Positions 35,993-64,000 of a stretch of DNA of 64,000 nt are shown here, piece by piece. The notes under the pieces are model-generated. The model had not been told where the DNA came from, did not search any database, and saw only the letters and a program-made list of their open reading frames with translations. The DNA is from Tunicatimonas pelagia (GTDB lineage: Bacteria > Bacteroidota > Bacteroidia > Cytophagales > Cyclobacteriaceae), in assembly GCF_030506325.1 (NCBI RefSeq), contig NZ_CP120683.1, forward strand, positions 2,480,001-2,544,000. The letters run 5' to 3'. Position numbers and translations under genes: made by a program. Position 1 is the first letter of the stretch. Each line of letters opens with the position of its first letter.

Positions 35993-36402
35993 TTAGAGTG
36001 GTTTTCTTACTTCTCGGCTCAGAGTAATATAGTCTTCTACCGCTTCCTCAAGGTAAAACCTGCCATTCGTATTTTCGTATTGAACAATACACCGAACCCG
36101 AACTAATGCCAGTGAATCTTGCTGGTAGTGTACTCGACGTAAGGATGGCTTTTTTGCCAATCTCTCAAGATTGTAGCATACCAGAAAATACTTGATTGCT
36201 AGATAATGGTTTTCCCAAGTCTTAGAGAAAGGTAACGCTTTCCGAACTAGACGAGCGCATCGTTGGCGACCGGCGTCCCAGCGAAGCGTATTATTGAACC
36301 GCTCTATCAGCGTGGTTTGCTGTTTACCTTCTACCTGATGCTGTCCCTTGGCGAATACAGTAGCGTAGGCATCCCAATCGTCAGTAAAGACCAACGCCTT
36401 TT
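35993..36402 (-). pseudogene. Truncated IS1-family transposase with 15-bp insert
   Basis: Similarity to IS1-type (InsB) transposases starts abruptly at about 36402 (KALVFTDDWDAYATVF) and runs through FAKGQHQVEGKQQ, LIERFNNTLR, QRCARLVRKALPFSKTWENH and YLAIKYFLVCYN. The N-terminal zinc finger and first catalytic Asp region are missing. Between NNTLR and QRCAR sit five extra residues (WDAGR) encoded by a GC-rich 15-bp insert at 36266-36280 that the copy at 63.8 kb lacks. After YN the frame runs on for about 60 residues of unrelated sequence. A dead remnant between the secretion operon and the sulfatase. Confidence 0.75.
36266..36280. repeat. GC-rich 15-bp insert, copy A
   Basis: Plus strand GCGACCGGCGTCCCA; in the transposase sense strand TGGGACGCCGGTCGC. 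It inserts five codons and keeps the frame. Same family as the inserts in the IS1 copy at 63.2-64.0 kb. Confidence 0.6.
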
Positions 36403-36420
36403 GCTAGTGTTGCTGGTATA

Positions 36421-37812
36421 CTATTGATAGTTTTGTTGTTCTTGTTGCAATGTGCGTTTTAGCTGTTGTACAAGGTGGTTGTGCGTTTGATCTACGGCTA
36501 GATTATTAAGCTCGTACGGGTCTTCTTGTAGATCGTAGAGTTCCTGAAATACTACCTGAGTGGTATCTGCCTCATCATACGTTTCAATGTATTTGTAGCG
36601 ATCGGTACGGATAGCTGCTAGTGGTTGGCTACCCAATTGAGGAGTAGGTGCTTCATAATAAATATGCGCTCTTTTTTCCGGCCATTCTTCCTCGGTTAGG
36701 GCCGGTAGCAAACTTACACCATGCAACTGAGGCGGACTATCTTCGCCTAGCATGGCCAGCAGCGTAGGAAAGATGTCAATATTGAGCACTAAATCTTGAT
36801 TTGTTCCCGGCTCAATGCCCGGGCCACTGATGATCAGAGGCACCCGGATGGATTCTTCGTAGGCCAGCACTTTACTAGTAAATAAATGATCACCGATGAA
36901 CCAGCCATTATCGCTCATAAAAATAATGTAAGTATTATCCGCGTTGGGCAATTGACTCACTTTGTTCAGCATTCGCCCCATAGCTGCATCCATTTCGGTG
37001 ATGGCGGCATAGTAGCGCTGAGTCTGGTACAGAAGCGTATCAGGGTTTTGATAGCCGTAACTCAATGCTTTTTGACGATGCCTTTCGGTAAGCAAATATT
37101 CGGGTTTACCTTCTAGCTTTTCATCCGGCCAGTTTTGGGGCAACTTAATTGTCCTCTCTTCGTACCGAGCGAGTGTTTCTTCTGTCACATCCCAATTGAA
37201 GTGGTTATCAAGGTGGGGAAGCTGAGGACAGTAAAACAATAGGTAGGGATCTTGTTGGTCAACAGTACTTTCCAGGAATTTAATTGCTTGGCGAGCATTA
37301 TAATCCTCGATGAAGCCTTCGGCTACTTTTTCCTCACCTTCTTCTATCACAGTACGATTGTACCAGGAGCCGTTCGAGAAAAAATAGCGAGCGTAATTAA
37401 ATCCGAGTGAGGTAGGACTATCCGCTAAATGCCACTTACCGACGAGTCCGGTTTGGTACCCCTGGTCTCTTAGTAGCTGAGCAAAGGTGCGCTCCCCTTC
37501 GTTCAAGCGAGCCTTTCCGAAGGTGGTTACTCCGTTGGCACTTCCGTACCTACCCGTGAGTAAAGCCGCCCGACTGGGACTACAAATGGACAACGTAACA
37601 AAAGCGTTTTCAAAGTACATGCCTGACGCACAGAGGCTATCTAGTGTAGGGGTAATGGCGGTATCAGACGTACGACATCCCAGGGCATCATAGCGCTGAT
37701 CGTCTGAATAGATGATGACGAAGTTGGGAGGAGCATCGCTAATGGACTGGGCTTCTGCACTGAGAAGACTGGCTATAGTCAGCCAGCATAAGATAAAACC
37801 ACAACGTAGCAT
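36421..37812 (-). CDS. Secreted sulfatase, formylglycine type
   Basis: 463 residues with a signal peptide (cut near SAEAQ). The alkaline-phosphatase-fold sulfatase core shows FVIIYSDDQRYDALG with metal-binding Asp37-Asp38 and the activation site CSPSRAALLTGR with Cys77, the residue oxidised to formylglycine. Other conserved pieces are GLVGKWHLA and IIFMSDNGWFIGDH. It removes sulfate from a glycan or similar substrate, probably in the periplasm. Last gene of the ECF-FecR-SusCD locus, 17 bp after the 827-residue protein, so sulfated polysaccharide is the likely target. No maturase gene is in the window. Confidence 0.93.
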   Translation of the reverse strand: MLRCGFILCWLTIASLLSAEAQSISDAPPNFVIIYSDDQRYDALGCRTSDTAITPTLDSLCASGMYFENAFVTLSICSPSRAALLTGRYGSANGVTTFGKARLNEGERTFAQLLRDQGYQTGLVGKWHLADSPTSLGFNYARYFFSNGSWYNRTVIEEGEEKVAEGFIEDYNARQAIKFLESTVDQQDPYLLFYCPQLPHLDNHFNWDVTEETLARYEERTIKLPQNWPDEKLEGKPEYLLTERHRQKALSYGYQNPDTLLYQTQRYYAAITEMDAAMGRMLNKVSQLPNADNTYIIFMSDNGWFIGDHLFTSKVLAYEESIRVPLIISGPGIEPGTNQDLVLNIDIFPTLLAMLGEDSPPQLHGVSLLPALTEEEWPEKRAHIYYEAPTPQLGSQPLAAIRTDRYKYIETYDEADTTQVVFQELYDLQEDPYELNNLAVDQTHNHLVQQLKRTLQQEQQNYQ

Positions 37813-37829
37813 AAGTTATATGATTCAGT

Positions 37830-40313
37830 TTATCGGTACTCTAACCAGGCTGTAGCGGTACAGTCAGCGTTGCTGCGAAAACGAACCCAACGACTCTGGA
37901 AATGATCCGGAAAAGTATGCTCGTAGATCTCGCCCGGAGCTACGGTGACTTCCTGGTAGACCATCCAGGGACCGTGGCCTACTGGCTCTACCTCTATGGT
38001 GAACGTAATAGGCTGGTCAGACTGATGAGAAAGCTGAAGGCTTCGTTGATCGTAAAAACCAATCAGGTACGGATCGGAAGGTTCGTTGGTTTTCACCGCA
38101 GTGTCTTTCCAGGGGCCACCCCGACCGGTAGGTTTACCCAGCTTCCACAGATCATCAATTACCCCTACCCAAACAGCAGCTTTTTTATCATCGGAGATGA
38201 CTACATGTTCGTTCTCAGGACTAGCATTCGGATCAATACCAGTCATCACGAGCAAGCCTCGGTAACTGGCGTAGTCGTGGATACGGAAGTTGTGGGAGCT
38301 AATCGGACGAATTTTGGCAAAACCATCGGCATTCTCCGCGGGAAGCTCGTAGAAGGTGCCATGACAGTTCATCAGGTCTCGTTCCGTAGCCACTTCCCGG
38401 TCAATCCGCAATGCAGCCTGATTGGTTAGTGGGGTAAATTCCTCGGCTCCTAGTGGCAACCGCCAGCGTCGTTCCTGATCGTCTACAATCAATACCGAAG
38501 AGGCTTCAACGGTAACGACCTGCTCAGGAATCGTAAACTTCTCGTTGATGAAGGTTTGGGTAGCCCCATCGTCTTTGGATTGCAACCGCAAGGCGGAATC
38601 TAATTCATAGTAGCCCTCAGTTCGTTTACCGTTCTCATCAAAGTGTACGGCACTAATGCCCAGTGTCCGGCGGTTGTCACCCAGTCCGTACAGCAAACCT
38701 CCTATTGCCCCAGATTGATCTACTGTAGCCAATCCCGAAAACATAGCATTCGGTTGAGCAGGCCGTTGATCTTCATCGGTATAGAAAAAGTGGGCGGTCG
38801 CCTGGGTAGATTCACTGCTTACTACGCGTACCCACTCGCCAGGAGTGTCCGGCGAAAACTCTACCAATTGACTGCTTTGGCTATCTATATTTATTTCCTG
38901 CAACGTTTCCCATTCTCCTTGTCCCGAAGCATCAACTTCTAGCGTGAAAGTAGTGGGCTGTTCACCGGCATTGTGCAACCAGGCTGCCCGTTGCGGCCAT
39001 CCAGCTAATAGGAAAGGCTCCGAAGGCGTATTAGCCGCTACCGCTTCATTCAGCCAGACGGCTCCCTCGGCGGTGTTAGGCCCCAGTTCATCGGGCATAT
39101 TCATATCCGTAAACCACAGATTAGAGTTGGATTGGCCGGGACCTTCAATACCTCCCTTTATTTTCCTTTTATTCAAGAATTCTCGTTGCGCTGAATCATC
39201 ACAACCAAACACTAACCGATCATTCCAGCGAGTGAAATCACCAATAACCTTCAGGTAGGCTGAGCGGGGGCGGATACCCGCTGATTGACTGGCGGTAAAG
39301 TTGCCAGGAAATTGCCAGAACATACCGTGCATGGTCATCAGGTAATCTGGTTCTTCAGACGTGCCCACATCCCGAATACGCGGCCACTCGGTGTTCCAGC
39401 CGTGGGCACCATCGTAGCTATGGCTAGCCTTGGGTAAGCGGAAAAATGACCAACCGTTCTCAGCATCCCGCACTCCCAACAGGACTGACTTATGATCCCA
39501 GCCAGTAGCCCAGATGGGATCAGTATCAGGGTTCTTATTTCCATAGATGCCACCCGGCCCAGTGACCTCTACAAACTGATTTCGACGGACCACCTGCCAG
39601 TCATTGCCATCCCATTCAGCAAGGACTCCGGCTTCAATATCAAACTGGGTACGAGCCTCCGGTACATCCTCCCCATTGTTGGAGTAGACTAAAACCCCCT
39701 GTCCGGAATACAGTCCTTTGCCGTGTGCCCCCGGTAGAAGCGCACTATACTCGGCTAAGTTCCCCGCTCGCCGGGCAATATTCCCGTCCTGGTGAAGCAT
39801 TTTAGCTTGCAGTGTACGTACATCTACTTCGTAGAATCCTTCTTCCATCGTGCCGTGATAAACGAAATTAGCTGGGTCAGTCAGGTGACGGGCGGTACCC
39901 GTATGACGACCCGGAGCTTCCGTGTAAGGAAGGACGCGTACCTGCCGATTGGTATCGATAGCGTAGGGGCCGATGAATAACTGCTGGCTCTCCGGATGAA
40001 TTAATCGGTTAGCCGGGGTGCCGCCTATACTCTCGGGCCGGACGATCTGCTGGAGATCGGGAGTAATCTCATAGAGCTTGTCCGATGAACCGGTAGGAAA
40101 GTGAGGGCCATAGGTGATGACCCACAAACGTCCCGCCCAGGGGACTACGGCGCCCGTACCGCATTCCCCTTCGTTATTGTAGTACGCCAAATGCGGATAG
40201 ATACCGCTGATAGACGGATAGGAATTAGCAGTGCTGTTCTGCGCAAATCCGCTGATGCTACACAACAAGATAAATACGACCGCTACAACTCGTCTGACTG
40301 GAAGTTTATGCAT
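37830..40313 (-). CDS. Secreted 827-residue protein with internal duplication, unknown function
   Basis: A signal peptide (VVAVVFILLCSISGFAQ) is followed by a beta-rich protein of unknown family. Two segments repeat. HGMFWQFPGNF...GIRPR...AVWLNEAV...SEPFLLAGWPQRAAWL...GEWVRVVSS in the middle matches HGTFYELPAEN...KIRPI...AVWVGVID...SDPYLIGFYDQRSLQL...SRWVRFRSN at the C-terminus, an internal duplication of roughly 200 residues. The N-terminal part has Trp/Tyr-rich blades that suggest a propeller. It sits between SusD and the sulfatase with gaps of 14 and 17 bp and is surely part of the same glycan locus, perhaps as a lyase, hydrolase or binding protein. Confidence 0.8.
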   Translation of the reverse strand: MHKLPVRRVVAVVFILLCSISGFAQNSTANSYPSISGIYPHLAYYNNEGECGTGAVVPWAGRLWVITYGPHFPTGSSDKLYEITPDLQQIVRPESIGGTPANRLIHPESQQLFIGPYAIDTNRQVRVLPYTEAPGRHTGTARHLTDPANFVYHGTMEEGFYEVDVRTLQAKMLHQDGNIARRAGNLAEYSALLPGAHGKGLYSGQGVLVYSNNGEDVPEARTQFDIEAGVLAEWDGNDWQVVRRNQFVEVTGPGGIYGNKNPDTDPIWATGWDHKSVLLGVRDAENGWSFFRLPKASHSYDGAHGWNTEWPRIRDVGTSEEPDYLMTMHGMFWQFPGNFTASQSAGIRPRSAYLKVIGDFTRWNDRLVFGCDDSAQREFLNKRKIKGGIEGPGQSNSNLWFTDMNMPDELGPNTAEGAVWLNEAVAANTPSEPFLLAGWPQRAAWLHNAGEQPTTFTLEVDASGQGEWETLQEINIDSQSSQLVEFSPDTPGEWVRVVSSESTQATAHFFYTDEDQRPAQPNAMFSGLATVDQSGAIGGLLYGLGDNRRTLGISAVHFDENGKRTEGYYELDSALRLQSKDDGATQTFINEKFTIPEQVVTVEASSVLIVDDQERRWRLPLGAEEFTPLTNQAALRIDREVATERDLMNCHGTFYELPAENADGFAKIRPISSHNFRIHDYASYRGLLVMTGIDPNASPENEHVVISDDKKAAVWVGVIDDLWKLGKPTGRGGPWKDTAVKTNEPSDPYLIGFYDQRSLQLSHQSDQPITFTIEVEPVGHGPWMVYQEVTVAPGEIYEHTFPDHFQSRWVRFRSNADCTATAWLEYR

Positions 40314-40327
40314 TGGGAGAGACCCGG

Positions 40328-42019
40328 TTAATATCCGGGATTTTGGGTTAAGTTATCGTTAAGCAAAATATCATCGGCCGGAATAGGCCAGAGATACATT
40401 CGTTCTTCAAAATCGTAATCTTCCAGCAAACGAGCGTAGCCATTATCTATCAGCTGCTGAGCCTTGAGATCAACCAAGCCATTTTCGTCAATTTCGGGCA
40501 AAATTTGATTATTGAACGGCCACTGGCTTCGGTCTTGATCTTGCGGCTCGGGTAATCCTACTACTAGCTGATCTAGCGCTTGCTCAGCTAACCGCCATCT
40601 CCGCAGGTCTTGAAACCGTAGGCTTCCTTCAAACATGAGTTCTACCCGGCGCTCCCGGCGTAAACGTGCGCGCAGTCCCGCCTGATCGGTTTCTGTAATC
40701 GCCGGATAGCCCGCCAGGTTATCCGCCGTGGTTCCGTAGGCACGGGCTCGAAGTTGATTTAGTAGTCCCTGGGCCTCTTCCAAATTTTCTCCTAGTTCAA
40801 TCAGTGCTTCGGCGTACATTAGCAAAATATCACCGTAGCGCAATATAATGACGTTGCGATCGGCGGTGCGGTTGTCAGACCAGGATTGCTCCACTCCTTT
40901 CTTCCAGACTAGGCCAGTAAACGAGGCAAAGATAGCGACCGAACGGGTATCATTATTATTAACAATGGTATTGCTGGTTGTATTGAGGGTCGTTAGTGAA
41001 TCGGGATGGGGCTGATAAATATACCCTAGCCACTCCGAGCCAAATTCTACAATCGTCTGCGCCAACCGAGGATCACGGTTAGAAAAAGGATCAAAAGGGT
41101 CATACAAAGGTGATTCATCAATGGTGAGTCCGTCGGTGCAGTCAAAAATACTGATGGCCTCCCAAGTAGGCATATTGGCCCCGAAGCCCCCGGCGTTACG
41201 GGTAATAATGCCTCGCGCTCCACCCTCAAAACTCCAAGTAATCCCCAACTCGAAGGAATACGGAATAAAATAAATATGTTCAGGGCTACTAGCTCCTGAT
41301 TTTAAAAACATCCCCTGAAAGTCAGGATCCAGGCTATACGTGTCAGCATCAATTACTGCCTTCGCCGCATCGCGCGCAATAGCGTAGTCGCCCATGTAAA
41401 GGGCAAAACGGGCTTTAATGCCTAAAGCAAAACCTTGGGTGGCTCTATTATCATTTCCATCGGGCAGAACAGCAGCAGCAGCATCCAACTCGTCGTAAAC
41501 AAACTGCTTTACCTCTTCCTGAGAGGTTCGCACTACTTCCAGTGACTCCTGGATGGTAAGCGGTTCCGTAATCAATGGTACCGCTCCAAACCTAAAGGTA
41601 AGCTTGCTGTAAAAGTAAGCACGAATAGCCCGGGCTTCAGCTTCTACCTGATCTACAATAGCACTCTCCACCCGCTCTCGTGCCTGAAGAAGCTGAGCCA
41701 ATAGCACATTCGCCCGCTTAATAGCTTCATAAGACAAATCCCAAGCTGGTTCAATTACTCCCGAGGTAGGGTTGAGTGTAGCACGGGAAATGGCATTGTT
41801 TCGCTGCCCCCCTCTGTGGTGCCCATCATCGTCCCAGTAAGATTCATCCAGTTTCCATAAGCGTTGCTGATAAAGGCCATTGAGGGCAATTTGTAACTCA
41901 TCCGCATTATTGAAAAAGTTAGTGGTAGATACCGCCGTTTGAGGTTCTAGATCGAGGGTTTCACAGCTGGTGAAGAATAGCCAGGTTGCGGTGATAATTA
42001 CTATATATCTTTTCATCAT
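40328..42019 (-). CDS. susD: SusD/RagB-family glycan-binding lipoprotein
   Basis: 563 residues from the MMKRY start at 42019; a longer frame to 42043 would overlap susC and shift the signal. Lipoprotein signal with Cys after FFTS, then the SusD helical repeats (FFNNADELQIALNGLYQQ; ANVLLAQLLQAR) and the C-terminal RagB half ending DDILLNDNLTQNPGY, a typical SusD terminus. It forms a surface-exposed lid on the SusC transporter and binds the oligosaccharide. Directly follows susC by 1 bp. Confidence 0.95.
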   Translation of the reverse strand: MMKRYIVIITATWLFFTSCETLDLEPQTAVSTTNFFNNADELQIALNGLYQQRLWKLDESYWDDDGHHRGGQRNNAISRATLNPTSGVIEPAWDLSYEAIKRANVLLAQLLQARERVESAIVDQVEAEARAIRAYFYSKLTFRFGAVPLITEPLTIQESLEVVRTSQEEVKQFVYDELDAAAAVLPDGNDNRATQGFALGIKARFALYMGDYAIARDAAKAVIDADTYSLDPDFQGMFLKSGASSPEHIYFIPYSFELGITWSFEGGARGIITRNAGGFGANMPTWEAISIFDCTDGLTIDESPLYDPFDPFSNRDPRLAQTIVEFGSEWLGYIYQPHPDSLTTLNTTSNTIVNNNDTRSVAIFASFTGLVWKKGVEQSWSDNRTADRNVIILRYGDILLMYAEALIELGENLEEAQGLLNQLRARAYGTTADNLAGYPAITETDQAGLRARLRRERRVELMFEGSLRFQDLRRWRLAEQALDQLVVGLPEPQDQDRSQWPFNNQILPEIDENGLVDLKAQQLIDNGYARLLEDYDFEERMYLWPIPADDILLNDNLTQNPGY

Positions 42020-42020
42020 T

Positions 42021-45000
42021 TTAAAACTTAACGTTAATACCAAACAGGACTGATTTCATGATAGGGTGGCCCGTGAAGTCTACTTCAGGGTCCCAGCCTT
42101 CTAGTAGGTCACCTCCTCGAAGGGTAGCGAAGTTTCTCAGAGCCACGTATACCCTGACTTTCTGAAGTGACGCTCGCTGGGATAAGCTAGTAGGAAGCGA
42201 ATAGCCTAGCGTAATATTTTGGATGCGTAAGTAGGCCGCGTTGTATAGCCAAAAATCCGATACTGCGTAGTTCAATCTTGAGGCCCCGGAAAACCTAGGA
42301 AAGTTGGCCGCCTGATTCTGAGCTTCGGTATTACCAGGTCGCCAGGATTCCTCCGCCACGTAAGTAGGAATATTGCCAAAAGCCTGGGTGAGTGGCTGCA
42401 CTTGAACATCATTGTACCGTTGATTGTGGTTGCCCACCCCGTTGAGAACCAATGAAAAATCTAGGTTCCGGTAGTTCAACGTGATATTTCCTCCGTAGGT
42501 AAATGTTGGTAACGAGGTGCCAAGGGGTACCCGGTCTTGCCCATTGATCACATTATCGCGCTCGTCAGGAACGCCATCGTTGTCGGTATCTACGGTCAGC
42601 TGATCAATAATCCGTACATCTCCGGGACGAGTAGGGTTGGTTATCCCATATTCATCAATTTGCTCTTGCGTCTGATACAGCCCGTCGGTTTGGTAGCCAA
42701 ACCATTCCCCAAATGCCGCACCTTCCGTATGAATTTGTGTTCCTCTATTAACCAAGAATGTCTCTATACCTCCCACATCCAGTATCTCGCTACGCAATAC
42801 GGAAGCATTGGCATTTACAGCGTACCTCAGATTGCCTATCTGATTCCGATAACCTACTTCAAAGTCCAATCCTTCTACTTCAATGCTCCCAACGTTAGTT
42901 TTTGTATTGTTCGGATATCCCAAGTAGTTGGGTAAATCTTGGGTGATAATAATATCGTCGGTTGTTTTTCGGTACGCATCTACCACCACAGTAATACGGT
43001 CATCCAAAAATCCCAGGTCTATCCCGGCATCTATGGTGCGGGTAGTTTCCCATACTAAAAATTGATCTGCTAAGAAATCCTGCGTTACTCCAATGCCAGA
43101 CACGAAGCTATTACCATCGTAAAAAACCGTATTGACTAGCTCAAACAGTCCTTGATACGGGTAGAAATTAAAGAATTCGTCTCCCTCAATTCGCCTATTC
43201 CCGATCTGTTCGTTACCTACCTCGCCATAAGAACCTCGTACCTTGAGAAACGAGATAAAAGTAGGAAGATCAAAGCTCTCTTCCGACACAACCCAACCCA
43301 GGGATAACGAAGGGAAGAAGCCCCACCGTTCGTCAGGCGCAAAGCGGGAAGAGCCATCGGCACGAAAGTTAGACTGGAGTAAGTACTTCCCTTTGTAGTT
43401 ATAACCAATTCGTCCGAAGAAGGAACGGATATTGTTTTCAGAAGTGTTTTGTTCGTTTTGCGTAAGCAGTGGATCACCAAATGCCAATGCATCCAACTCT
43501 ATTCCTAGATCGCGACTGGTGGTGGAAATACGATCCCAATCAGTGTTTACTTCCTCATAGCCTCCCAGCAGATTAAGTTGATGATCCCCGATAGTCTTGT
43601 CGTACGAAACAATCGCTTGGGAAGTAAGGGTTGTTACGTTGGTCTGCCTTTTTTCTAAGCTGGAGACAGACTGAGGCCAAAATTCAGTGGTACTGCCTAG
43701 CCGTGGTATATCGGGTGGGGTGAAGAAACGGTCGTATCGGTCAAAGTCAAAGGTTGGAGAAAAGTTTAGCCGCAGCGATAGTGAACTAGTCGGCTTAATG
43801 GTTACCCCGATGATACCATTGAGTTGGTTGAGGGTTTGCGTTCGTGATCCACCTTCAATAGTTTGGGCTAAGGGGTTCTCCCCGTCTTTTCCTTCCCCCC
43901 ATTCGCCATCGGTTCTGATGGCCGAAAAAATACCAGGGTACCGACGAGATAGCGCAATCGGATTCTCCGCTGCACTTTGTATTTGGCGTGCAGGATCGGT
44001 AGTATTCGTCCGTTTATAGTAAAGGTCAATGTTAGCCTCTATGATGCTCCCTAAGGTGAGCCCGTTGTTAACCCGGAAAGTAAACCGCTGGAAATCGTTA
44101 TTGGCGTACATGCCATCTTCGGTCACGTAGCTCATAGAAGCGCGGGTATTCACATTTTGTGAGCCTACCGTCAGTGCTAGGTTGTGGCGATGTCTGGCCG
44201 TTGGTACATCACTAAGGATCGCGTCCTGCCAATCGGTATCGGGGTACAGATCCGGGTCTTGGGCGTGTAGCTCATCGTACTGCTCGGTAATTTCCGGATC
44301 AAAGGTTTCCCCCCCACCGTCATTGGTAGAGTATTCGGTAGCAATTTCTCGGTAGGTCTTCGCATTTACGTACTCCGGAAGCTCCGTAGGGTAGTTTGAC
44401 CCAAATTCGTAATCATATTCAATCCTGAGCTGCCCTTCCGTACCTCTCTTCGTTGTTACCAATACTACTCCCGCAGCGGCTCTCGCTCCGTATATTGCCT
44501 GAGAAGCAGCATCTTTCAGTACCGTAACCGACTCTACGTCGTTGGGGTTAATGTCGTCTAAGGTCAAACCTTGGATACCATCTACAATTACTAGTGGATC
44601 ATTTACATTGAGTGAAGTAACGCCTCTAACACGGATGCTGCTACCCTCCCCAGAGCCACCTCCGTCTCGAGTAACAGTAACCCCAGCCACACTTCCTTGC
44701 AAAGCATCCGACAATTGAACCGCTTGCCGATTTTCTATGGTCTCAGATGACACTTCGGCCACGGCTCCCGTCAGGTCTTTCTTTTGGGTAGTACCGTAGC
44801 CCACTACCACGACTTCCGAGAGCGACTGAATATCCGGTGCCAAGGAAATATTGATTTCAGCACGACCACTGATTTCTTCCTCAATGGTCTCAAAACCAAT
44901 AGAAGAAAACACCAGCGTCGTTACTTCATCAGCTACCGTTAGCCGATAATTACCATCTATATCGGTAACTGTTCCAATACTAGTCCCTTTAACCAGAATA

Positions 45001-45539: not shown

Positions 45540-45608
45540 AGTTTAAGTATATTGGAAGTGAACACTATATATAGTCCGTCGGAATGTTTGCCGCATCCGG
45601 CGGATTTT

Positions 45609-54502: not shown

Positions 54503-54554
54503 CGCCAATAACACCTTGGTTCATATTATTGATACATAGCACAACCCTATTATT

Positions 54555-55031
54555 ATGGAAACTACCGACATTGGTATTCACGACACCAACCGCGAAAGCG
54601 TAGCGTATCTGCTTAATATGCTACTGGCCGACGAGCATATACTGTATCTCAAAACCCGAAATTATCACTGGAATGTGAAGGGAATGCACTTTCAGTCGCT
54701 GCACGGATTTTTTGAAACTCAGTACCAGGAACTGGAAGAAATGATTGACCAAATTGCGGAGCGAATCCGGGCCATTGGTCACTACGCTACGGCCGCCATG
54801 AAGGACTACGTGAAACTAGCTCGCCTGCTGGAAACTAATCACGTAGACGGCTCAGCCGAAACCATGCTTCGTAATCTCCTGCAAGACCACGAAACGATTA
54901 TCCGTATCCTACGGAAAGACCTGGTAGAAGAGGCAGATAAATACCGCGACGTGGGCACCAGCGACTTCGTGACCGGCCTTATGGAACGACACGAAAAAAT
55001 GGCCTGGATGATTCGCTCGTATCTGGGATAA
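54555..55031 (+). CDS. dps: Dps-family ferritin-like DNA-protection protein
   Basis: 158 residues, normal Dps length. The ferroxidase motif YHWNVKGMHFQSLHGFFETQ is present with His, and the acidic partners in YQELEEMIDQIAERI follow. The dodecamer oxidises and stores Fe(II), using H2O2, and shields DNA during starvation or oxidative stress. It is 12 bp upstream of a histidine kinase gene and probably co-transcribed with it. Confidence 0.95.
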   Translation: METTDIGIHDTNRESVAYLLNMLLADEHILYLKTRNYHWNVKGMHFQSLHGFFETQYQELEEMIDQIAERIRAIGHYATAAMKDYVKLARLLETNHVDGSAETMLRNLLQDHETIIRILRKDLVEEADKYRDVGTSDFVTGLMERHEKMAWMIRSYLG

Positions 55032-55043
55032 AGCAACAGATAG

Positions 55044-55760: not shown

Positions 55761-55908
55761 TATTGTAGTCGAAGTAACCCTAAAGGACGTTGGAAACCCC
55801 ACCGCGAACGTGACGGTAAGCTAAGAACACCTCGGGAATCACCGTACAAGGGAGCTTCGATTGACCGTTATTTTTCACTTTTTATTATCAACTTTTATTC
55901 TAAAAACT

Positions 55909-56679: not shown

Positions 56680-56775
56680 TCCTTGCTTACCTACAAAATC
56701 AATGACCCGACAAGGTAAGCGGAACACGGGAGAGTGCTCGTTTACCAACCTTCACCTACAATATTTTACCTGACT

Positions 56776-57270
56776 ATGGAAACCTTACAAGAGACTCTTG
56801 ACAAGATTGAGATATTTCAGCTGGCCTATAAGTTTGCTGATGCTGCCAACCGAAAAGATGGTAAGATGTTTCAGTGCCTTTGGGACCACCAGCAAGCGGT
56901 GTGGATCATTGGCCCGCCAATCAATGCCTTGTTCAGTGGCCGCGAGCAAATGGGAACCTCGTTAGTTCAGATGCTCAACCGATGGGAATTTTTCGTTCAG
57001 ATGGTCTCTGGGGGCGTTGTGGAAGTGCACGGTAGGGAGGCTTATGCCCGCTTTTATATCCACGAAGTGGCAAACTCAAGGGAGAGCCAGGGAAACAATA
57101 ATTTATCGATGTACGAGGATGAACTGATTAAGAAGGATGGTTTTTGGTTCTTTACCAAACGAACCTACCATACGATCTTCCAGTCCGCCGAACGGCAAGT
57201 GGGTGAAGTAATTGGCGTTCCTGAAGTACCCAACTGGATACGGACTGCTTCCCTGGCTAGCCGCCAATGA
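56776..57270 (+). CDS. SnoaL-like / NTF2-fold protein
   Basis: 164 residues from the ATG at 56776 (METLQETLDK); the longer frame to 56734 adds 14 unsupported residues. The pattern IEIFQLAYKFADAANRKDGK...MFQCLWDHQQAVW and a final strand GFWFFTKRTYHTIF are those of SnoaL-like proteins with a conical ligand pocket. These proteins are isomerases, hydratases or binding proteins, mostly of unknown substrate. Confidence 0.78.
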   Translation: METLQETLDKIEIFQLAYKFADAANRKDGKMFQCLWDHQQAVWIIGPPINALFSGREQMGTSLVQMLNRWEFFVQMVSGGVVEVHGREAYARFYIHEVANSRESQGNNNLSMYEDELIKKDGFWFFTKRTYHTIFQSAERQVGEVIGVPEVPNWIRTASLASRQ

Positions 57271-57311
57271 CCCGGAAAGCGCAAGAATGTCCGAGAAAGA
57301 GTCACTTATTT

Positions 57312-57343
57312 GAAGTTTATTAGAGAATATTCTGATAAACTTC
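57312..57343. promoter_or_regulatory. Imperfect 32-bp palindrome upstream of hsp20
   Basis: Arms GAAGTTTAT (57312-57320) and ATAAACTTC (57335-57343) are exact, with further pairing AGA/TCT inside. A copy of the inner motif TATCAGAATA lies at about 57381-57390. It ends 91 bp before the small heat-shock gene. Candidate heat-shock operator; it is not the classical CIRCE sequence. Confidence 0.5.
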
Positions 57344-57434
57344 TAAGGTGCATGACGACACGAACCTCGGGGGTAAATAATTATCAGAATAAGGTTTATT
57401 GAGTAAAGAAACATAACTAACAAAATCTAATAGT

Positions 57435-57860
57435 ATGGCTATTCTTGTAAGAAACACGATTTCGCCCTCTTGGAGCGACCGGTTGAATCAGTTGATGCTT
57501 CATGACCCAATGTGGAAGAAAATGCATCCTGACCGTATTTCACCTCCTGCCAACATCGTTACGCAAGAAGATCGTTACGAGGTTGAGCTTTCTATTCCTG
57601 GCATGAATAAAGAAGACCTAGAAATTTATGTAGATCACGACGTTCTACATATCTCCGGTAATCATCAGGAAGAAGCATCCGCCGACCGAAAGTACGCGCA
57701 CCAGGAATTTGTGCGAACCTCCTTCCATCGCTCATTTACGCTACCGGCTAACTTGGAAGATAACCAAGTTGAAGCTCACTACGACCAAGGAGTGCTTCGG
57801 GTAGTTTTATACAAAAAGGAGACTCACCACCACGAAAGAAAAAAAATTGAAATTCAGTAG
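57435..57860 (+). CDS. hsp20: Small heat-shock protein (Hsp20/alpha-crystallin)
   Basis: 141 residues. The alpha-crystallin domain spans about residues 38-130 (PANIVTQEDRYEVELSIPGM then NKEDLEIYVDHDVL...) and ends with the conserved AHYDQGVLRVVLYKKE. An ATP-independent chaperone that holds unfolded protein. An inverted repeat upstream may control it. The C-terminal IXI-like motif is IEIQ. Confidence 0.95.
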   Translation: MAILVRNTISPSWSDRLNQLMLHDPMWKKMHPDRISPPANIVTQEDRYEVELSIPGMNKEDLEIYVDHDVLHISGNHQEEASADRKYAHQEFVRTSFHRSFTLPANLEDNQVEAHYDQGVLRVVLYKKETHHHERKKIEIQ

Positions 57861-58192
57861 GCCGGGGGTGGTTCTAACTTTATGAAATTGCTTAGCTAAT
57901 TTTCGCACCAGCTATTTCTTTAGTAAAACAATGGCCGATGCGCTGGCGGGTGGATTTCAGCGGGTGATTCTTACGCTTGATCGCTTCCAGCAAGCCTCTG
58001 CAAGCCACCCTAGAACCCATGAAATTACCCGGGCGGGACATACCTAACGTAGATATTTTGAGTCAGTGCTCAGCTATCCGCAACAACGTGCTGTCCTGAC
58101 AAGATCGTCCCAGCAAGCCCGCCGATTTACCCCTTTCTTTATAACATATTCTTTTAAAACAAAATTAAGCAGTCACTTAATCTATTTTTGCT
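57861..58192. other. 332-bp gap, no gene
   Basis: No open frame of note. A short stretch (about 57930-58020) is GC-richer than normal intergenic DNA and may be a decayed gene. The last 60 bp are AT-rich and precede the next gene, so they probably hold its promoter. Confidence 0.4.
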
Positions 58193-58597
58193 ATGAACGA
58201 AACAAATGCCACCGACCAATTGGCCATTATGGCCCTGACCGCCACCTTTGAACGCGCCTTCGATCTGGGAGACCACGACCTGCATATGAGCACCTGGCAC
58301 GACGAACTGAAGTTTGAGAGCCAGTTTGGGAATTACGACAACCATCAGGATTACCGCGCTTGGCTGGTTGGCTTCTACGAACAGATGAAAGAACGGGGCG
58401 GTACCCGTCACCTGATTACCAACCACGAGATTAGTGTGCAGGGAGACTCTGCCGAAATGATGTGTTACCTGACGATCTTGAGCCAGAGGGAGGTCGTTGT
58501 TTTTGCTACCGCCATGTTCGAGGACCGGCTGGTCAAGGTAGACGGGCAGTGGAAGTTTACCCACCGAAAGCTTCATGTTGACCAACAGTTTCCGTGA
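58193..58597 (+). CDS. SnoaL-like protein
   Basis: 134 residues. NTF2-type cone fold: helix LAIMALTATFERAFDLGDHD, strand HMSTWHDELKFESQFG, and C-terminal strands MFEDRLVKVDGQWKFTHRKL with the typical W-K/R-F ending. Putative small-molecule isomerase or binding protein. It overlaps the next gene by 4 bp, so the two are translationally coupled. Confidence 0.82.
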   Translation: MNETNATDQLAIMALTATFERAFDLGDHDLHMSTWHDELKFESQFGNYDNHQDYRAWLVGFYEQMKERGGTRHLITNHEISVQGDSAEMMCYLTILSQREVVVFATAMFEDRLVKVDGQWKFTHRKLHVDQQFP

Positions 58598-58827
58598 AGT
58601 ACTCAGTCAACATCCGCAGTACGAGAACATTTGCTAGCCAGGATGAGAAACAAGCGTGGCTTGACCGTCTGCAACAGATTGCCGAAAAGTACCAAGACAC
58701 GCTAGAAATTAAGCTGATAACCAGTGAAGAGAACGACGCCCCTTCTACGGTGAGCGTTGTTCTCTCCCCAAAAATCGAACAAGACCGTAGCTACTCTCCT
58801 GCCCGACTATGCCAGGATAATCAGTAG
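58594..58827 (+). CDS. Small hypothetical protein coupled to SnoaL-like gene
   Basis: 77 residues with no recognised domain. Start ATG? The frame begins at GTG 58594 overlapping the upstream stop by 4 bp. N-terminal region (KYSVNIRSTRTFASQDEKQA) is mixed alpha/beta, and the C-terminus is likely disordered. The tight overlap is the main evidence that it is real. Confidence 0.5.
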   Translation: MKYSVNIRSTRTFASQDEKQAWLDRLQQIAEKYQDTLEIKLITSEENDAPSTVSVVLSPKIEQDRSYSPARLCQDNQ

Positions 58828-58864
58828 AAGATAATTGTACCTATCAGCAAAAATTCGCCAAAAA

Positions 58865-59803
58865 ATGACTAATAAGAAAATAGTACTAGCCGGAGCCACC
58901 GGCCAACTCGGCAGCCTAATTGCCGCAGAATTATTGAAAGACCCTCACATCACGTTAGAAGTACTCTCTCGTCAGCATTCGGAACAGACCGATGTGCTTG
59001 CCCGGCAGGGAGCTACCATTCACGTGACCGACTACACCGACTTGCATCCAATAAAGTCCGCTTTTGAGGGTACCTTTAGTGTAATATCAGCCTTGCAGGG
59101 TGACGAATCAGTCATTGTAGATGCTCAACTGAGGCTGTACCAGCAAGTCATTGAAGCCGGATGCCAATGCTTTATTCCTTCTGATTATTCCTTTAACCTC
59201 TTTGCGTTGGAGAAAGGAGAAAACTGGCTATCCGACATCCGTAGAACATTCGCTCAGCAAGCCACAGCACTCAACGCGCCTACCCAACTGGTACACGTTA
59301 ACAATGGCTGTTTTTTAGATACCCGAGTACTGTTTGGCTTCCTTGGAGCGGTTGATCTGAAATCCCGCACGGCAAACTATTGGGGCGACGGTCAGTTTCC
59401 GCTGGACTTCACCACCTTTGCCGATACAGCGGCCTACACCGCCCAAATGGCTACCGACGAACGAGACATGCCAAATAAATTTTACGTAGTGGGTGATCGG
59501 TGTAACTTTCACGAATTGGTAGCCTCGTTAGAAAGAGAAACCGGGCAGGCATTTAAAGTAATCCACAATGGTTCAATGGATGAATTAGATCAAACGATTG
59601 CGCGCCGTATTCAGAAAAGCCCGAACAACCTCTTCTCCTTCATACCGCTAATGTACTACCGAGCTATGCTCAACGGCAAGGGAAGTTTACCAACAACTCA
59701 TAATCATCTGTTTCCCGAAATTCAACCTACGGGAGTAGCAGCGTACATTCGGCATATCGTTCGTCCGTTGGTAGCCTCACCCGCAACAGCAAGCTCGCAG
59801 TAA
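58865..59803 (+). CDS. NmrA/isoflavone-reductase-like NAD(P)-binding protein
   Basis: 312 residues from the ATG at 58865 (MTNKKIVLAG); the longer frame to 58835 adds ten residues before the strand. Rossmann motif VLAGATGQLGSLIAAEL, then NmrA-type features (SVISALQGDESVIVDAQLRL; FIPSDYSFNLFALEKGEN). Either a redox enzyme on an aromatic or small substrate, or an NADP-sensing regulator. Third gene of a probable operon with the SnoaL-like and 77-residue genes. Confidence 0.85.
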   Translation: MTNKKIVLAGATGQLGSLIAAELLKDPHITLEVLSRQHSEQTDVLARQGATIHVTDYTDLHPIKSAFEGTFSVISALQGDESVIVDAQLRLYQQVIEAGCQCFIPSDYSFNLFALEKGENWLSDIRRTFAQQATALNAPTQLVHVNNGCFLDTRVLFGFLGAVDLKSRTANYWGDGQFPLDFTTFADTAAYTAQMATDERDMPNKFYVVGDRCNFHELVASLERETGQAFKVIHNGSMDELDQTIARRIQKSPNNLFSFIPLMYYRAMLNGKGSLPTTHNHLFPEIQPTGVAAYIRHIVRPLVASPATASSQ

Positions 59804-59897
59804 AACAATCAGTGGCAACAAAGTGCAAGTAGGACAAAATTCTCCTGGAATCCGGAGTAGTTTTGCCGGTTCTTGAGAAGAAAATCACCCTAACATT

Positions 59898-60770
59898 ATG
59901 AAACTATTAATCACCGGAGCCACCGGCTTTGTCGGACGGCACGTAGCTCAGGCATCATTAGCGAAAGGACATCAGGTAACGGGTATCGTGCGAAGTAGCG
60001 ACCAGGCAAAAACGCTGAAGGCACAAGACATTGAGTCCGTGGTGAGCGATTTGTCAGAGACTGATTTGCTCCGCCAGCTTACCCGGGCAAGCGATGGGGT
60101 AGTCCACGCTGCTGCCGCCAATAGTCCTGATTGGGAAGAAACGAACCATCGAGTGGTCACTACGTTCCTGGATGCGCTTGAGGATACGGGGAAACCACTG
60201 GCCATGCAAGGGGGCACCATGGTGTTTGGCGATACCGGAGCCAGCCCGCTGGCGGAAGAAGCGGCTACGTTCAACGGTCCCCCACCCTTGCAAGGCCGCA
60301 TCGCGCTGGAACGTCAGTTCCTGGAAGCCTCTCAGCGGGGCATTCGCCCTCTCATGATTTACGGAAGTTACGTATACGGTGGCTCAGGAGCTGCTATTCC
60401 TTCTATCATGAAAGCCGCCGCCCAATCCAGCGGTTACAGTGCCTACGTAGGTGAAGGGGCTAACGGCTGGGCAAGTGTGCATATTCGCGACTGGGCCGAT
60501 TTGTTTGTACTCGCCCTGGAAAATCCGCAGGCACAGGGAGCTTACTTTGCGGCTACTGAGGTTAACTCCTTGAAAGAGATTGCTACCATCATAGATGAGG
60601 CTACTGAGCAGTCATCGGGCACCCGATCGGTTTCTCCGGAACAGGCGCAAGCATTGTGGAGCTTCTTTTCCCAGCCTTTATCGTTCATGAACCAGCGTTT
60701 TTCGGCTGAAAAAGCAATCACTACGCTGGGGTGGCACCCTAAGTATTCACTAGAAGCTTCTACACTGTAA
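59898..60770 (+). CDS. NAD-dependent epimerase/dehydratase family protein
   Basis: 290 residues, atypical extended SDR. Rossmann motif ITGATGFVGRHVAQASL; SDLSETDLLRQLTRASDGVV; the active-site region reads MVFGDTG then IYGSYVYGGSG with YxxxS rather than a clear YxxxK, so activity is unsure. Probably reduces a small carbonyl compound. Same strand as its neighbours, 14 bp before the bestrophin gene. Confidence 0.85.
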   Translation: MKLLITGATGFVGRHVAQASLAKGHQVTGIVRSSDQAKTLKAQDIESVVSDLSETDLLRQLTRASDGVVHAAAANSPDWEETNHRVVTTFLDALEDTGKPLAMQGGTMVFGDTGASPLAEEAATFNGPPPLQGRIALERQFLEASQRGIRPLMIYGSYVYGGSGAAIPSIMKAAAQSSGYSAYVGEGANGWASVHIRDWADLFVLALENPQAQGAYFAATEVNSLKEIATIIDEATEQSSGTRSVSPEQAQALWSFFSQPLSFMNQRFSAEKAITTLGWHPKYSLEASTL

Positions 60771-60784
60771 TTCCTTGGTTCACT

Positions 60785-61813
60785 ATGTATATCAAAAGAA
60801 ACTTAAGCCTCGATTTACTGCTACGCTACTCTTGGCCCATACTCACGCCGGCTCTGCTTTGGGCAGCGATGGTGCTATCGGCCTATCACCTGCTGGGGTG
60901 GACGTTCCTGAGCTTTAGCTTTCAGCCGATCACGGTCATCGGCATTGCCGTTTCGTTTTTGATTGGCTTCAAGAACAACCAGAGCTACGACCGTTTTTGG
61001 GAAGGACGTAAAATCTGGGGAGCCATTGTCAACTATAGCCGTACCTGGGCCAATCAGGTGCTTCATTTGGTGACCAACCTGGAAAACAGTGCTATTGCTA
61101 AAGAAGAATTGGCTCACCACCATCAGGTATTAATTCATCGGCACATCGCCTGGCTACACGCTTTACGCATTCAACTGCGCCAGCCTGTTTCATTTTCGCT
61201 GAAGGAAAATAAGCTGGTAGAACAATTTATGGATCGTCATCGGAATAATGAGTTGATCTGCGAGACAATCGCACCCTACATTAGCGAAACTGAGGTAGAA
61301 GAAGTGCGTCACCGTCGCAATGTGGCTACCCATCTGGTTAAAAACCAGGGAAGGTACCTTCGGGCATTGCGAAAAGAAGGCTTGGTTAACGGATTCGACT
61401 TGTTAATGCTGATGAAGTGTCTGGAAGAGTGTTACAATTTTCAGGGCCGGTGCGAACGTATCAAGAACACGCCTTTTCCCCGGCAGTATGCCTTCTTTGG
61501 CAAAGTGTTTACGTATATTTTCGTATTACTGCTTCCTCTTGGCTTACTGGATGTTTTCATCGGTTCATCGGCTACAGCCTCGCCAATGCCCAGCATAGAT
61601 ATTTTTCTATTCTTAATTGTCTCAGTGCTGACCACTTGGATATTCTTGACCTGGGAGCTGGTGGGCAACAACAGCGAAGACCCTTTTGAAAACCGCAGTA
61701 GCGATGTTCCGATGACGGCACTCACCCGAACCATTGAAATCGATTTGCGAGATATGCTCGATGAGTCGGAGCTTCCCGAAAAGCTACAGCCGAAGGACAA
61801 TATTCTTTACTAA
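60785..61813 (+). CDS. Bestrophin-family anion channel
   Basis: 342 residues. Four hydrophobic segments and the family core NNQSYDRFWEGRKIWGAIVN, with HVALHALR-type region AWLHALRIQL and C-terminal EDPFENRSSDVPMTALTRTI. Bestrophins form pentameric inner-membrane channels for chloride and bicarbonate. The carbonic anhydrase gene starts 9 bp downstream, which supports a bicarbonate role here. Confidence 0.92.
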   Translation: MYIKRNLSLDLLLRYSWPILTPALLWAAMVLSAYHLLGWTFLSFSFQPITVIGIAVSFLIGFKNNQSYDRFWEGRKIWGAIVNYSRTWANQVLHLVTNLENSAIAKEELAHHHQVLIHRHIAWLHALRIQLRQPVSFSLKENKLVEQFMDRHRNNELICETIAPYISETEVEEVRHRRNVATHLVKNQGRYLRALRKEGLVNGFDLLMLMKCLEECYNFQGRCERIKNTPFPRQYAFFGKVFTYIFVLLLPLGLLDVFIGSSATASPMPSIDIFLFLIVSVLTTWIFLTWELVGNNSEDPFENRSSDVPMTALTRTIEIDLRDMLDESELPEKLQPKDNILY

Positions 61814-61822
61814 ACCCTAATC

Positions 61823-62407
61823 ATGATGGCTATCACCTGCGTTGACGCTTACCGAACGTTAAGAAAAGGAAATGAAAACTACGTTACCGGACAATCTACT
61901 CACCCCAATACGGATATTAGTGCTCGGGAGAAAGTGGTAGACGGACAACATCCGTTCGCGGTTGTGCTCTGCTGCTCTGATTCTCGGGTAGTCCCCGAAC
62001 TCATCTTTGATACCGGCATCGGCGACCTGTTCGTCATTCGGGTAGCAGGTAATGTGCTCGATGATGCCATCATTGCTAGCATTGAGTACGCAGTTGCTAA
62101 CCTAGGCTCCTCACTGGTCGTGGTGCTCGGACACGAAAAGTGCGGAGCAGTGACCGCAGCGGTTAACCAAGTAGCAGGAGGGCACTTGATTGCGCTGACT
62201 GATAAGATTAACCCGGCTATTGATCAAGCGCAGCAGCAGGATGGTGATTTGGTCGACAACAGCATTCGCCAGAATGCCATCAATATGGCCGAACAACTAC
62301 AGAAATCAGCCCCGGTGCTTCGCCCTCAATACGAAGCAAAAACGCTAAAAATACTGCCCGCTTACTACGCCCTGACCACGGGAAAAGTCGCCTTCCTCAA
62401 AGGTTAG
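61823..62407 (+). CDS. Beta-class carbonic anhydrase
   Basis: 194 residues, short for the class but complete in the core. Zn ligands are Cys51 with Asp53-Arg55 (CSDSRVVPE), His104 and Cys107 (LGHEKCGAV). Interconverts CO2 and bicarbonate in the cytoplasm, or in the periplasm if exported, but no signal peptide is seen. It is coupled to the bestrophin gene, suggesting that the pair moves and equilibrates inorganic carbon or buffers pH. Confidence 0.95.
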   Translation: MMAITCVDAYRTLRKGNENYVTGQSTHPNTDISAREKVVDGQHPFAVVLCCSDSRVVPELIFDTGIGDLFVIRVAGNVLDDAIIASIEYAVANLGSSLVVVLGHEKCGAVTAAVNQVAGGHLIALTDKINPAIDQAQQQDGDLVDNSIRQNAINMAEQLQKSAPVLRPQYEAKTLKILPAYYALTTGKVAFLKG

Positions 62408-62470
62408 TTATGATCTACCGCCTCTATCTATTGATTACTTTCAGGCGAAGACTTTGATACTACATACGCA

Positions 62471-63163
62471 ATGAAATTACAAGATAAAACAGTGGTTGTG
62501 GGGGGAGGCACCGGGGCGGTAGGCGAAGGCATTGTGAAAGCTTTACTATCGCACGGTGCGACGGTCATCGTTCCAGCGCGTTCATCCGAGAAGGAAGAAA
62601 AACTGCGACAATACGTTGCTCCAGTCAACACTGGCTCGCTAGCCACTTACGCGTACGATATTGGGCAAATTGATCAGGCCGAAGCGTTCCGCGAAGTAGT
62701 ACTTCGCGCATTTGGTCGTATTGATATGGTGGTAGCTAGCTTGGGCGGCTGGTCAATGGGCTACGACTTGGTGGATACGCCCCTGGCAATGTGGAACAAT
62801 GTGCTGCATAATAATTTGACCACCCACTTTGGGTTCGTGAAAACGTTTATTCCGGTTCTCAAAAAGCAAAACGACGGTTTGTACATCAATATCAACGGAG
62901 GGGCGCAGGAAAACATCGCTCCATTGGCTGGGGCTATGACTATCATCTCTTCGGCGCAGAACCGGATGGTAGAAGTATTGCACCACGAAGCAAGGGAAGC
63001 CAACTACCGGGTACGATCCGTCGCCGCATTTACGCCCGTTCGCACCCGGGCCCGCGGTAGTGCCGTCGATTCCAGCTGGGTCAGTGCCGAAGACGTAGGA
63101 AACCACATAGCGAAACTCTACCTCGGCACAGTTAAGCCCGACCCGGTAGTGTACTTTAGATAA
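62471..63163 (+). CDS. Short-chain dehydrogenase-like protein lacking YxxxK
   Basis: 230 residues. The nucleotide-binding motif VVVGGGTGAVGEGIVKALL and core NAG-like ASLGGWSMG are present. In the active-site region the sequence is IISSAQNRM where classical SDRs have YxxxK, so the catalytic Tyr and Lys are replaced by Ile and Gln. It may use another chemistry or serve as a binding protein. Last intact gene before the IS1 copy. Confidence 0.8.
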   Translation: MKLQDKTVVVGGGTGAVGEGIVKALLSHGATVIVPARSSEKEEKLRQYVAPVNTGSLATYAYDIGQIDQAEAFREVVLRAFGRIDMVVASLGGWSMGYDLVDTPLAMWNNVLHNNLTTHFGFVKTFIPVLKKQNDGLYININGGAQENIAPLAGAMTIISSAQNRMVEVLHHEAREANYRVRSVAAFTPVRTRARGSAVDSSWVSAEDVGNHIAKLYLGTVKPDPVVYFR

Positions 63164-63218
63164 GGATGAAAAAATTAAGAATTTGGCAATGGGGTAGTAA
63201 ATCGTATTATTGGGTTGA

Positions 63219-63233
63219 CCGCGCGGCGAACCG
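63219..63233. repeat. GC-rich 15-bp insert, copy B
   Basis: CCGCGCGGCGAACCG in the untranslated leader of the IS1 copy. Its reverse complement differs by one base from copy C. Removing it joins GGGTTGA to CCAAAAC. Confidence 0.55.
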
Positions 63234-63574
63234 CCAAAACATCAATAATATGCTCACTTGTCCTCATTGCCCAAGTAGCAAGATCGTAAAGAAGGGATTT
63301 ACTTCCTACGGAAAGCAAAATTATCTGCCATTCTTGCCAACGCCAAGCCGTAGAAAGAACGGATTCTGTACGTTTTAAGCGGGAAGAAATACTACAGAGT
63401 CTGCTACTAGAGTGCATCTCATTACGGGCGATTGCCCGCACGCTAAACGTCAGTCTGGGTTGGGTAGTCAAACGTGCTAAACAATACTGGCAATCGGTTG
63501 ATAAAGCGCTTCCCGTTGGACGACTAGAACAGCCTGAATTAGCCCTCTATTGCCTAGAGGCGGATGAAATGTGG

Positions 63575-63589
63575 CGGTCCGCCGCGCGG
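63575..63589. repeat. GC-rich 15-bp insert, copy C
   Basis: CGGTCCGCCGCGCGG between DEMW and SFVGAK, adding RSAAR in frame. In opposite orientation to copies B, D and E. Confidence 0.6.
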
Positions 63590-63810
63590 TCGTTTGTAGG
63601 AGCCAAAGACTGTCCCGAATGGATATGGCCACTATGGAATGGCTGGCGATCGAGCGACGTAGTAGACTCGTGGTGGGTTTTCACCTTGGGGGGCGTGACC
63701 AAGAAGGGGCCTTTGGTCTGTGGTTAAGTGTTCCTAAAAAGCTCAGAAAGAAGGCATTATGCTTCACCGATGATGGGGAGGCCTATGTGCCTGTGTTCGC
63801 TAAAGGCCAA

Positions 63811-63825
63811 CCGGGCGCCGGAGCG
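63811..63825. repeat. GC-rich 15-bp insert, copy D
   Basis: CCGGGCGCCGGAGCG between FAKGQ and HQREGK, adding PGAGA. The 36-kb copy has FAKGQHQVEGK with no insert here. Confidence 0.65.
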
Positions 63826-63867
63826 CATCAGCGCGAAGGGAAGTGGCAAACTAGGATAATAGAACGT

Positions 63868-63882
63868 CCGCTCGGCGGTCCG
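63868..63882. repeat. GC-rich 15-bp insert, copy E
   Basis: CCGCTCGGCGGTCCG between IIER and INNT, adding PLGGP. The 36-kb copy reads LIERFNNT without it. Confidence 0.65.
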
Positions 63883-63989
63883 ATCAATAATACGGTTCGT
63901 CAGCGGTGTGCCCGGTGAGTCCGTAAAACATTATCTTTCTCTAAAAATTGGGAAGATCATTATTTGGCGATCAAATATTTCCTAGTTCA

Positions 63990-64000
63990 CCGGGCGTCGG
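63990..64000. repeat. GC-rich 15-bp insert, copy F (cut by window edge)
   Basis: CCGGGCGTCGG matches the first 11 bases of copy D with one change, inserted after KYFLVH. The rest is outside the window. Confidence 0.45.

Follow-up and report, generated by a model that had tools for sequence, protein, structure and literature searches.

The SDRs of Nostoc are reportedly 21-27 nt long and defined as sequence families; they are said to share a secondary structure with compensatory changes, to be inserted into one another, to lie in minitransposons and heptamer repeats, and to be confined to one bacterial subgroup. The palindromic elements of Rickettsia measure about 100-150 bp and occur in functional genes, and template-switch mutations at quasi-palindromes create short inverted copies of neighboring sequence via fold-back synthesis, with varying length and site. 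The SDR work (Elhai et al., 2008, Genome Res 18:1484) is cited in PMC4390886 and PMC3116915, the former adding that SDR5 inserts precisely into HIP1 and the latter describing REP/REPIN elements, with their RAYT (Y1) transposases, as short palindromes dispersed in bacterial genomes; REP elements, which have a tagged end, are given as 20-40 bp in the abstract of PMC3733652. According to Wu and Hao (2015, PMC4478555), the yeast mitochondrial GC clusters are GC-rich palindromic mobile DNA of an AT-rich genome, characterized by rapid change, merger and shuffling, and putative target duplications.

The inserts described here are best read as akin to the Nostoc SDRs and the yeast mitochondrial GC clusters, yet as smaller and partly target-templated; searches of open-licence PMC papers listed none describing inserts of this kind in the phylum. 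Like the SDRs, they are small dispersed inserts which share a common structure with compensatory changes, are nested and reside in MITE-like repeats, and a case beside a heptamer array (with the target ACAG) resembles the setting reported for Nostoc. Unlike the SDRs with their reported families of 21-27 nt, they measure 14-16 bp, are defined by a rule, include a subclass containing the inverted target and occur in another phylum. The elements of Rickettsia are likewise palindromic and able to sit in frame within coding sequence, but the present inserts are ten times shorter and are found in broken genes, and, unlike template switches, they hardly vary in length (14-16), in the size of stem (4) or loop (3-4), or in the GGG/CCC motif. 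With the yeast GC clusters, as well as with double-hairpin elements, they have in common GC-rich palindromic DNA in AT-rich genomes, a fast-changing sequence, merger and shuffling, and putative target duplications (PMC4478555), but they are bacterial and 14-16 bp long as compared to a 42-nt main case in an organelle, and the inverted-target rule does not appear in the abstract and introduction of that paper. Unlike REP/REPIN elements, they sit inside other mobile elements and are shorter; by eye, no REP-type tag (GTAG/CGTC) next to a palindrome was noticed in 51 inserts.

The window, i.e., the whole stretch of 64,000 nucleotides analyzed, represents G000:C1:2480001-2544000 of the 7.29-Mb genome of Tunicatimonas pelagia, and its end falls inside an IS1-family element. 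The features discussed are listed below, with S and L denoting stem and loop segments of the inserts and S' and L' their reverse complements.

63145..64000, running on to 64056 beyond the window, plus strand: IS1-family element with ends GGTAGTGTA..TACACTACC and a broken transposase gene
63219..63233, plus strand: insert 1, CCGCGCGGCGAACCG, after TTGA; 15-bp gap versus the intact copy L004
63575..63589, minus strand: insert 2, CCGCGCGGCGGACCG; perfect S-L-S'-AC-L' counting the next base C
63811..63825, plus strand: insert 3, CCGGGCGCCGGAGCG; architecture perfect when the next base is included
63868..63882, plus strand: insert 4, CCGCTCGGCGGTCCG; architecture perfect including the next base (A)
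63990..64000, continuing beyond the window, plus strand: insert 5, CCGGGCGTCGGTCGC; net 14 bp versus L004
36124..36400, minus strand: 3' remnant of another IS1-family copy (L006)
36266..36280, minus strand: insert in this IS1 remnant, TGGGACGCCGGTCGC on the minus strand

Two copies of the IS1 element in the same genome, L003 and L004, are identical in sequence, measure 826 bp, code for an uninterrupted transposase of 264 amino acids, are flanked by 8-bp direct repeats and contain no inserts. The transposase, as identified by a Pfam match on an intact relative (PF03400, DDE_Tnp_IS1, 74.4 bits), the ends and the duplication are all those of the IS1 family. The copy in the window is interrupted by a frameshift and a stop, and no clear target duplication was seen there, though the ends are present; a twin (L008, about G000:C1:1276.4-1277.3 kb) with 902 of 914 positions identical (99%) is broken as well. 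When aligned to L004, the window copy shows GC-rich extra DNA at five places, amounting to 15 bp at four of them and to net 14 bp at the fifth (63990); its twin has all five of these insertions as well. In addition, a low-GC stretch of 14 bp at 63640-63660, which shifts the reading frame and lies outside the GC-rich insert family, is present in the window copy as well as in L057 and L063 but not in L004.

Insert 1 shares its site with L063 from G003 and is near-identical to an insert at TTGA^C in a MITE-like repeat, M1 (TCGCGCGGCGAACCG); the site of insert 4 is also filled in L057 of G001, and the IS1 relatives in these two genomes of the same genus are filled at further sites. The remnant at 36124-36400 holds one insert and lacks those of the window IS1, while a further remnant (L005) has two elsewhere. 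All six sequences of the initial annotation are present, at or no more than 2 bases off the coordinates it gave, and its view of them as true recurrent tiny insertions, occurring in both orientations and clustered in non-functional DNA, is supported. Its statement that sites filled in one copy are empty in another applies to the comparison with L003/L004 and other IS1 copies, but not to the window-type pair, which shares every insert. Nor are the inserts fixed at the same places in all IS1 copies, L003 and L004 being empty and L005, L006 and copies in G001 and G003 being filled elsewhere.

The length of the inserts is narrowly confined. Gap lengths in self-BLAST alignments of the DNA compared peak at 14 (56 gaps, 31 of them GC-rich) and 15 (98 gaps, 76 GC-rich), while each remaining length from 4 to 24 is represented by 0-8 gaps, all of these being pairwise and non-independent counts. 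A catalog of 51 filled/empty inserts with their flanks, typed by hand from alignments and not equivalent to 51 independent events, comprises 23 from M1, 15 from IS1, ten from an IS3 family, two from a second IS1 type and one from another MITE-like repeat (MITE2). The typed lengths are 15 (27 inserts), 14 (20) and 16 bp (4), where at least two rows (63990 and MITE2) were entered as 15 while the alignment gives 14, and insert boundaries are uncertain by one base in several of the 51 rows; the GC content amounts to 80.5%. Since 24 of the 51 lengths as typed cannot be divided by three, there is no general conservation of the reading frame, and the in-frame pentapeptide proposed initially does not describe the inserts, lengths of 14 and 16 being common. 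Their assignment to IS1 alone was too narrow, and an IS1-specific decoration is ruled out by inserts in IS3, M1 and MITE2 copies. Neither a consistent target duplication nor the ends of a parent transposon, as expected of MITEs, were found in the 15-bp class, and scars of the pentapeptide-scanning type (10 bp plus a 5-bp duplication) were discarded, as the inserts show no consistent 5-bp duplication.

The unifying feature of the inserts is an interleaved inverted-repeat architecture rather than a fixed consensus. Its common form is S(4)-L(3-4)-S'(4)-spacer(0-2)-L'(3-4), with S' and L' as reverse complements of S and L. When searched for on both strands and scored out of 7, it reaches a mean of 6.18 in the 51 inserts, versus 4.98 (sd 0.10, maximum of 300 shuffles 5.25) for inserts shuffled in place; the full score is reached by 22 of the 51 and a score of 6 by 18, while the other 11, at 5 or 4, remain at the level of the shuffles. 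Only 5 of 7 is obtained for the insert at 36266-36280, which has TCGC direct repeats on both sides if written as CT-TCGC-TGGGACGCCGG-TCGC-CAACG. L' often takes its final base from the flank, whose first base then completes the pairing, as is the case with C for the loop GCG, A for TCG and T for ACG; L059 is among the exceptions. Covariation was assessed in 25 inserts with hand-set registers and 5000 permutations: 157 of 175 pairs match, versus a permuted mean of 105 and with 0/5000 permutations as high. Stem pairs (90/100, permuted 54.6) and loop-tail pairs (67/75, permuted 50.2) contribute separately, neither value being reached in any of the 5000 permutations, and the outcome is the same for the 21 distinct rows (stems 74/84, loop-tail 55/63). 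An earlier set of 28 rows, which included three pre-selected for perfect fit, gave 179/196 versus 122. An H-type pseudoknot as a folded molecule is judged unlikely, because the connecting loops would measure 0-2 nt.

The consensus offered initially, CCGSNCGSCGGWSCG, fits three of the six sites exactly and one with 1 mismatch, but the sites at 36266-36280 and 63990 are loose, with no match at up to 2 mismatches. Counted genome-wide, the exact sequence occurs six times in 7.29 Mb as compared to 0 for the reversed control, these being the same three sites in the window IS1 and in its 99% twin. At up to 2 mismatches, it is barely enriched (283 versus 205 in the control), and the matches lie mostly inside long ORFs (400 kb inspected), which makes a fixed consensus weak as a unifying feature. 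The remark that no named element of this kind is known agrees with our searches, which returned no known family.

Apart from IS1, inserts of 14-16 bp distinguish members of an IS3 family from one another, comprising a copy at 3780.5-3781.7 kb and relatives in G000 and G001, and their site ATGAG^CGGAAG is filled in three copies (two alike, one different) and empty in two. The M1 repeat (GTTCATTTTTGTCTTGACACAAAAACGAACCAAAAAAGTCAAG..; L176-L205, L216-L245, L286-L309) likewise exists in filled and empty forms at several sites. Within the genus, 21 of 29 distinct loci (33 rows before removal of four loci present twice) are decorated at the counted sites, namely 6/7 in G000, 2/3 in G001, 2/2 in G002 and 11/17 in G003. 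Inserted lengths, tallied where they fell into one of the preset windows (13-17, 26-32 or 40-46 bp), were 14 (18), 15 (14), 28 (6), 30 (2), 13 (1) and 42 (1). The insertions of 28, 30 and 42 bp at single sites are read as inserts within inserts (L183, L185, L188, L195, L198, L202), corresponding to the nesting and the minitransposon setting of SDRs. The inserts also recur at hot spots, and near-identical units are found at unrelated loci, as seen for window insert 1 and M1 site 2, for AGCGCGGCTGCCGC in both M1 and locus 3784932, and for ATCGGACTGCCGACGC in both an IS1 copy of G001 and locus 3773434.

A MITE-like repeat (L206, L208, L209, L213, L214) with ends TACACTGT..ACAGTGTA and arms GTCATTGCGAG carries the further GC-rich units TCGGACGGCCGATGC and CCGCTCGCCGTAGCG, of which no clean empty copy was found. 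At G000:C1:56272-56300 (L086), GTGGCGCCCACCGC is arranged in tandem with a period of 14, as if S-L-S'-L' were repeated head to tail. The loci L088 and L089 (G000 3773434 and 3536379) contain ATCGGACTGCCGACRC with AGYGA on each side, where Y is locus-specific and agrees within the locus; for these two loci, no empty counterpart was found.

In a small subclass of the form X-GGG-X'-CCC-X, the 4-bp target X is duplicated and also stands in inverted form within the insert. With X duplicated and the inverted X' in the middle, such inserts are therefore taken to be made from their target. Among the M1 insertions, this form is found with GTCT, AAGC and, with one mismatch, ATGC (L187), while a fourth case, AGGC (L183), has three mismatches. 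A scan of 1.63 Mb for X-L-X'-L'-X with any loop L returned four perfect cases at an X length of 4, every one with L = GGG; the same 1.63 Mb contained no GGG cases at X lengths of 5 or 6, and GGG was absent among the 14 loops listed for length 3. In 2.40 Mb of non-N sequence, part of the added DNA having been chosen for holding M1, eight perfect cases were present, seven with GGG and one with TCT. The former are represented by GTCT (four times) and AAGC in M1, TAGC in an intergenic position and ACAG beside a heptamer array; GGG accounts for 3 of 21 one-mismatch cases. A one-mismatch match in G003:C1 lies inside an ORF and was taken as chance. The subclass rests on few distinct events, part of them in one repeat family. 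Tandem heptamer arrays (CCGGTCT)n occur at G000:C1:376080-376115 and 5641290-5641370, and the ACAG case adjoins one such array.

As to the location of the inserts, GC spikes, scanned for by composition alone in some 150 kb of noncoding sequence, number 32, versus 13-36 in 20 Markov sequences, and show no excess. The perfect architecture occurs eight times in 151 kb of noncoding DNA of G000, versus a mean of 0.3, but seven of these cases come from 20-kb stretches picked for consensus matches and one from two unselected blocks (878 kb). The noncoding DNA of G003:C61 (43 kb) contains 1 versus 0.1, and the ORFs contain 20 versus 10-17 in G000 and 2 versus 2-4 in C61. The inserts are therefore concentrated in decayed mobile elements and repeats, either because selection removes insertions elsewhere or because such DNA is the preferred target. 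The supposed preference for non-essential DNA is borne out only in part, because unselected intergenic DNA holds few inserts. Present mobility is not evident, since the 99% identical pair differs in no insert: no insertion event younger than the split of this pair was seen, nor did recent copies show any polymorphism of the inserts.

M1 was found in 47 of 148 family genomes sampled. Among 51 M1 copies from 27 genomes belonging to other genera, the filter marked three as decorated, two from G028 and one from G123 (L307), the latter of which looks misaligned; this comparison with the genus is biased, because the copies of the genus were found by a decorated query and the others by an empty-form query. 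The inserts of G028, which belongs to another genus and also has empty M1 copies, occupy the same M1 sites as in the genus. One of them, GCCGACGTGGCGCG, differs by one base from the insert of L194 in G000, and GCCGACGYGGCGCG is seen in both genera (G000 L194, G028 L295). A complete restriction to the genus is overturned by these decorated copies. In the M1 family sample, 4 of 17 rows of the genus exceed the query span by 14-16 bp, with none seen in other genera, where two exceed it by 12. No GC-rich gaps of 14-15 bp were seen in six IS1 relatives (Rufibacter, Pontibacter and Adhaeribacter), which says little, as most look intact.

We give about even credence to a recurrent, lineage-restricted, hairpin-based micro-insertion process which adds 14-16 bp in the form S-L-S'-(n)-L', and the inserts point to a DNA-writing process whose insertion units rank with the smallest known. 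For the target-derived subclass, fold-back synthesis at a staggered break is favored, which would yield X-GGG-X'-CCC-X exactly. After a nick or break staggered by 4 nt, the two ends would carry an identical tetranucleotide X; each 3' terminus would gain GGG, fold back on X to form a hairpin with the stem X and the loop GGG, and copy X into X'. The new 3' tails X' and X would then anneal mutually, and filling and ligation would complete X-GGG-X'-CCC-X. In its behavior, the GC-rich 15-bp class comes closer to copied units: a similar hairpin (stem S, loop L, loop-pairing tail L') may be re-used as the copied unit, and a few near-fixed sequences would therefore recur at unrelated loci. As the 15-bp class shows no consistent target duplication, its link to X-GGG-X'-CCC-X can only be presumed. 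It is also possible, if somewhat doubtful, that the reaction is target-templated in that an enzyme reads X and inserts GGG-X'-CCC-X, thereby duplicating X, with the 15-bp hairpins representing later rounds or relatives; if so, this would be an insertion process without an element sequence of its own, consisting only of a rule.

Rather unlikely, as compared to the micro-insertion process, is a very small non-autonomous element of the SDR or REP type, i.e., few fixed hairpins copied by a trans-acting enzyme via RNA or single-stranded DNA, whose structure would be maintained through being read by the enzyme. Units nearly identical between unrelated loci and between two genera, the covarying structure, the nesting and the insertion into MITE-like repeats and heptamer arrays would all be expected of it; however, the sequence is not fixed, stems and loops changing compensatorily, and the inverted target inside X-GGG-X'-CCC-X is unexpected of a fixed element. 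The search for reverse transcriptases also argues against it, as RVT_1 has 0 matches in G000 and G001, though three in G002 and six in G003. RVT_1 was accordingly rejected as the agent, and a host reverse transcriptase is not needed for the inserts of G000 unless it has been lost, past activity being possible; the window from 36000 to 64000 contains no Rfam match at gathering score.

Scars left by imprecise excision of a larger transposon with GGG..CCC ends and a 4-bp target duplication, combined with hairpin-mediated filling, would explain the duplication of X over 4 bp and the GGG/CCC symmetry of the subclass. This origin is improbable, since no full element with GGG..CCC ends was noticed in the DNA compared, the target duplication is absent in the 15-bp class, and the constant length and architecture are unusual for scars. 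It is more improbable still that the inserts are old and were inherited with their hosts, decorated IS1, IS3 and M1 lineages having transposed as units after few events and without independent mobility of the inserts. The identical insert sets of the window IS1 and its twin and the sites common to species or genera (insert 1 and L063; M1 sites) fit this view, but related copies are filled at differing sites, one and the same site may hold unrelated inserts or none (IS3 ATGAG^CGGAAG; M1 sites 3 and 4), and at least four repeat families are affected. Errors of assembly or sequencing, or chance GC-rich words, have hardly any probability left: the same inserts are present at two loci within an assembly that is 99.9% complete, the assemblies of other species contain similar ones, and the length peak at 14-15 bp and the covariation likewise argue against this view.

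If the preferred micro-insertion reading is right, few recurrent insertion units in bacteria are as small as these inserts, and the subclass with the inverted target makes a mechanism testable from sequence, as each new insert would be predictable from its site. The process would then bear on the long-open origin of palindromic mini-repeats such as SDRs, GC clusters and REPs, and the inserts would provide a datable mark of foreign DNA gathering in decayed transposons.
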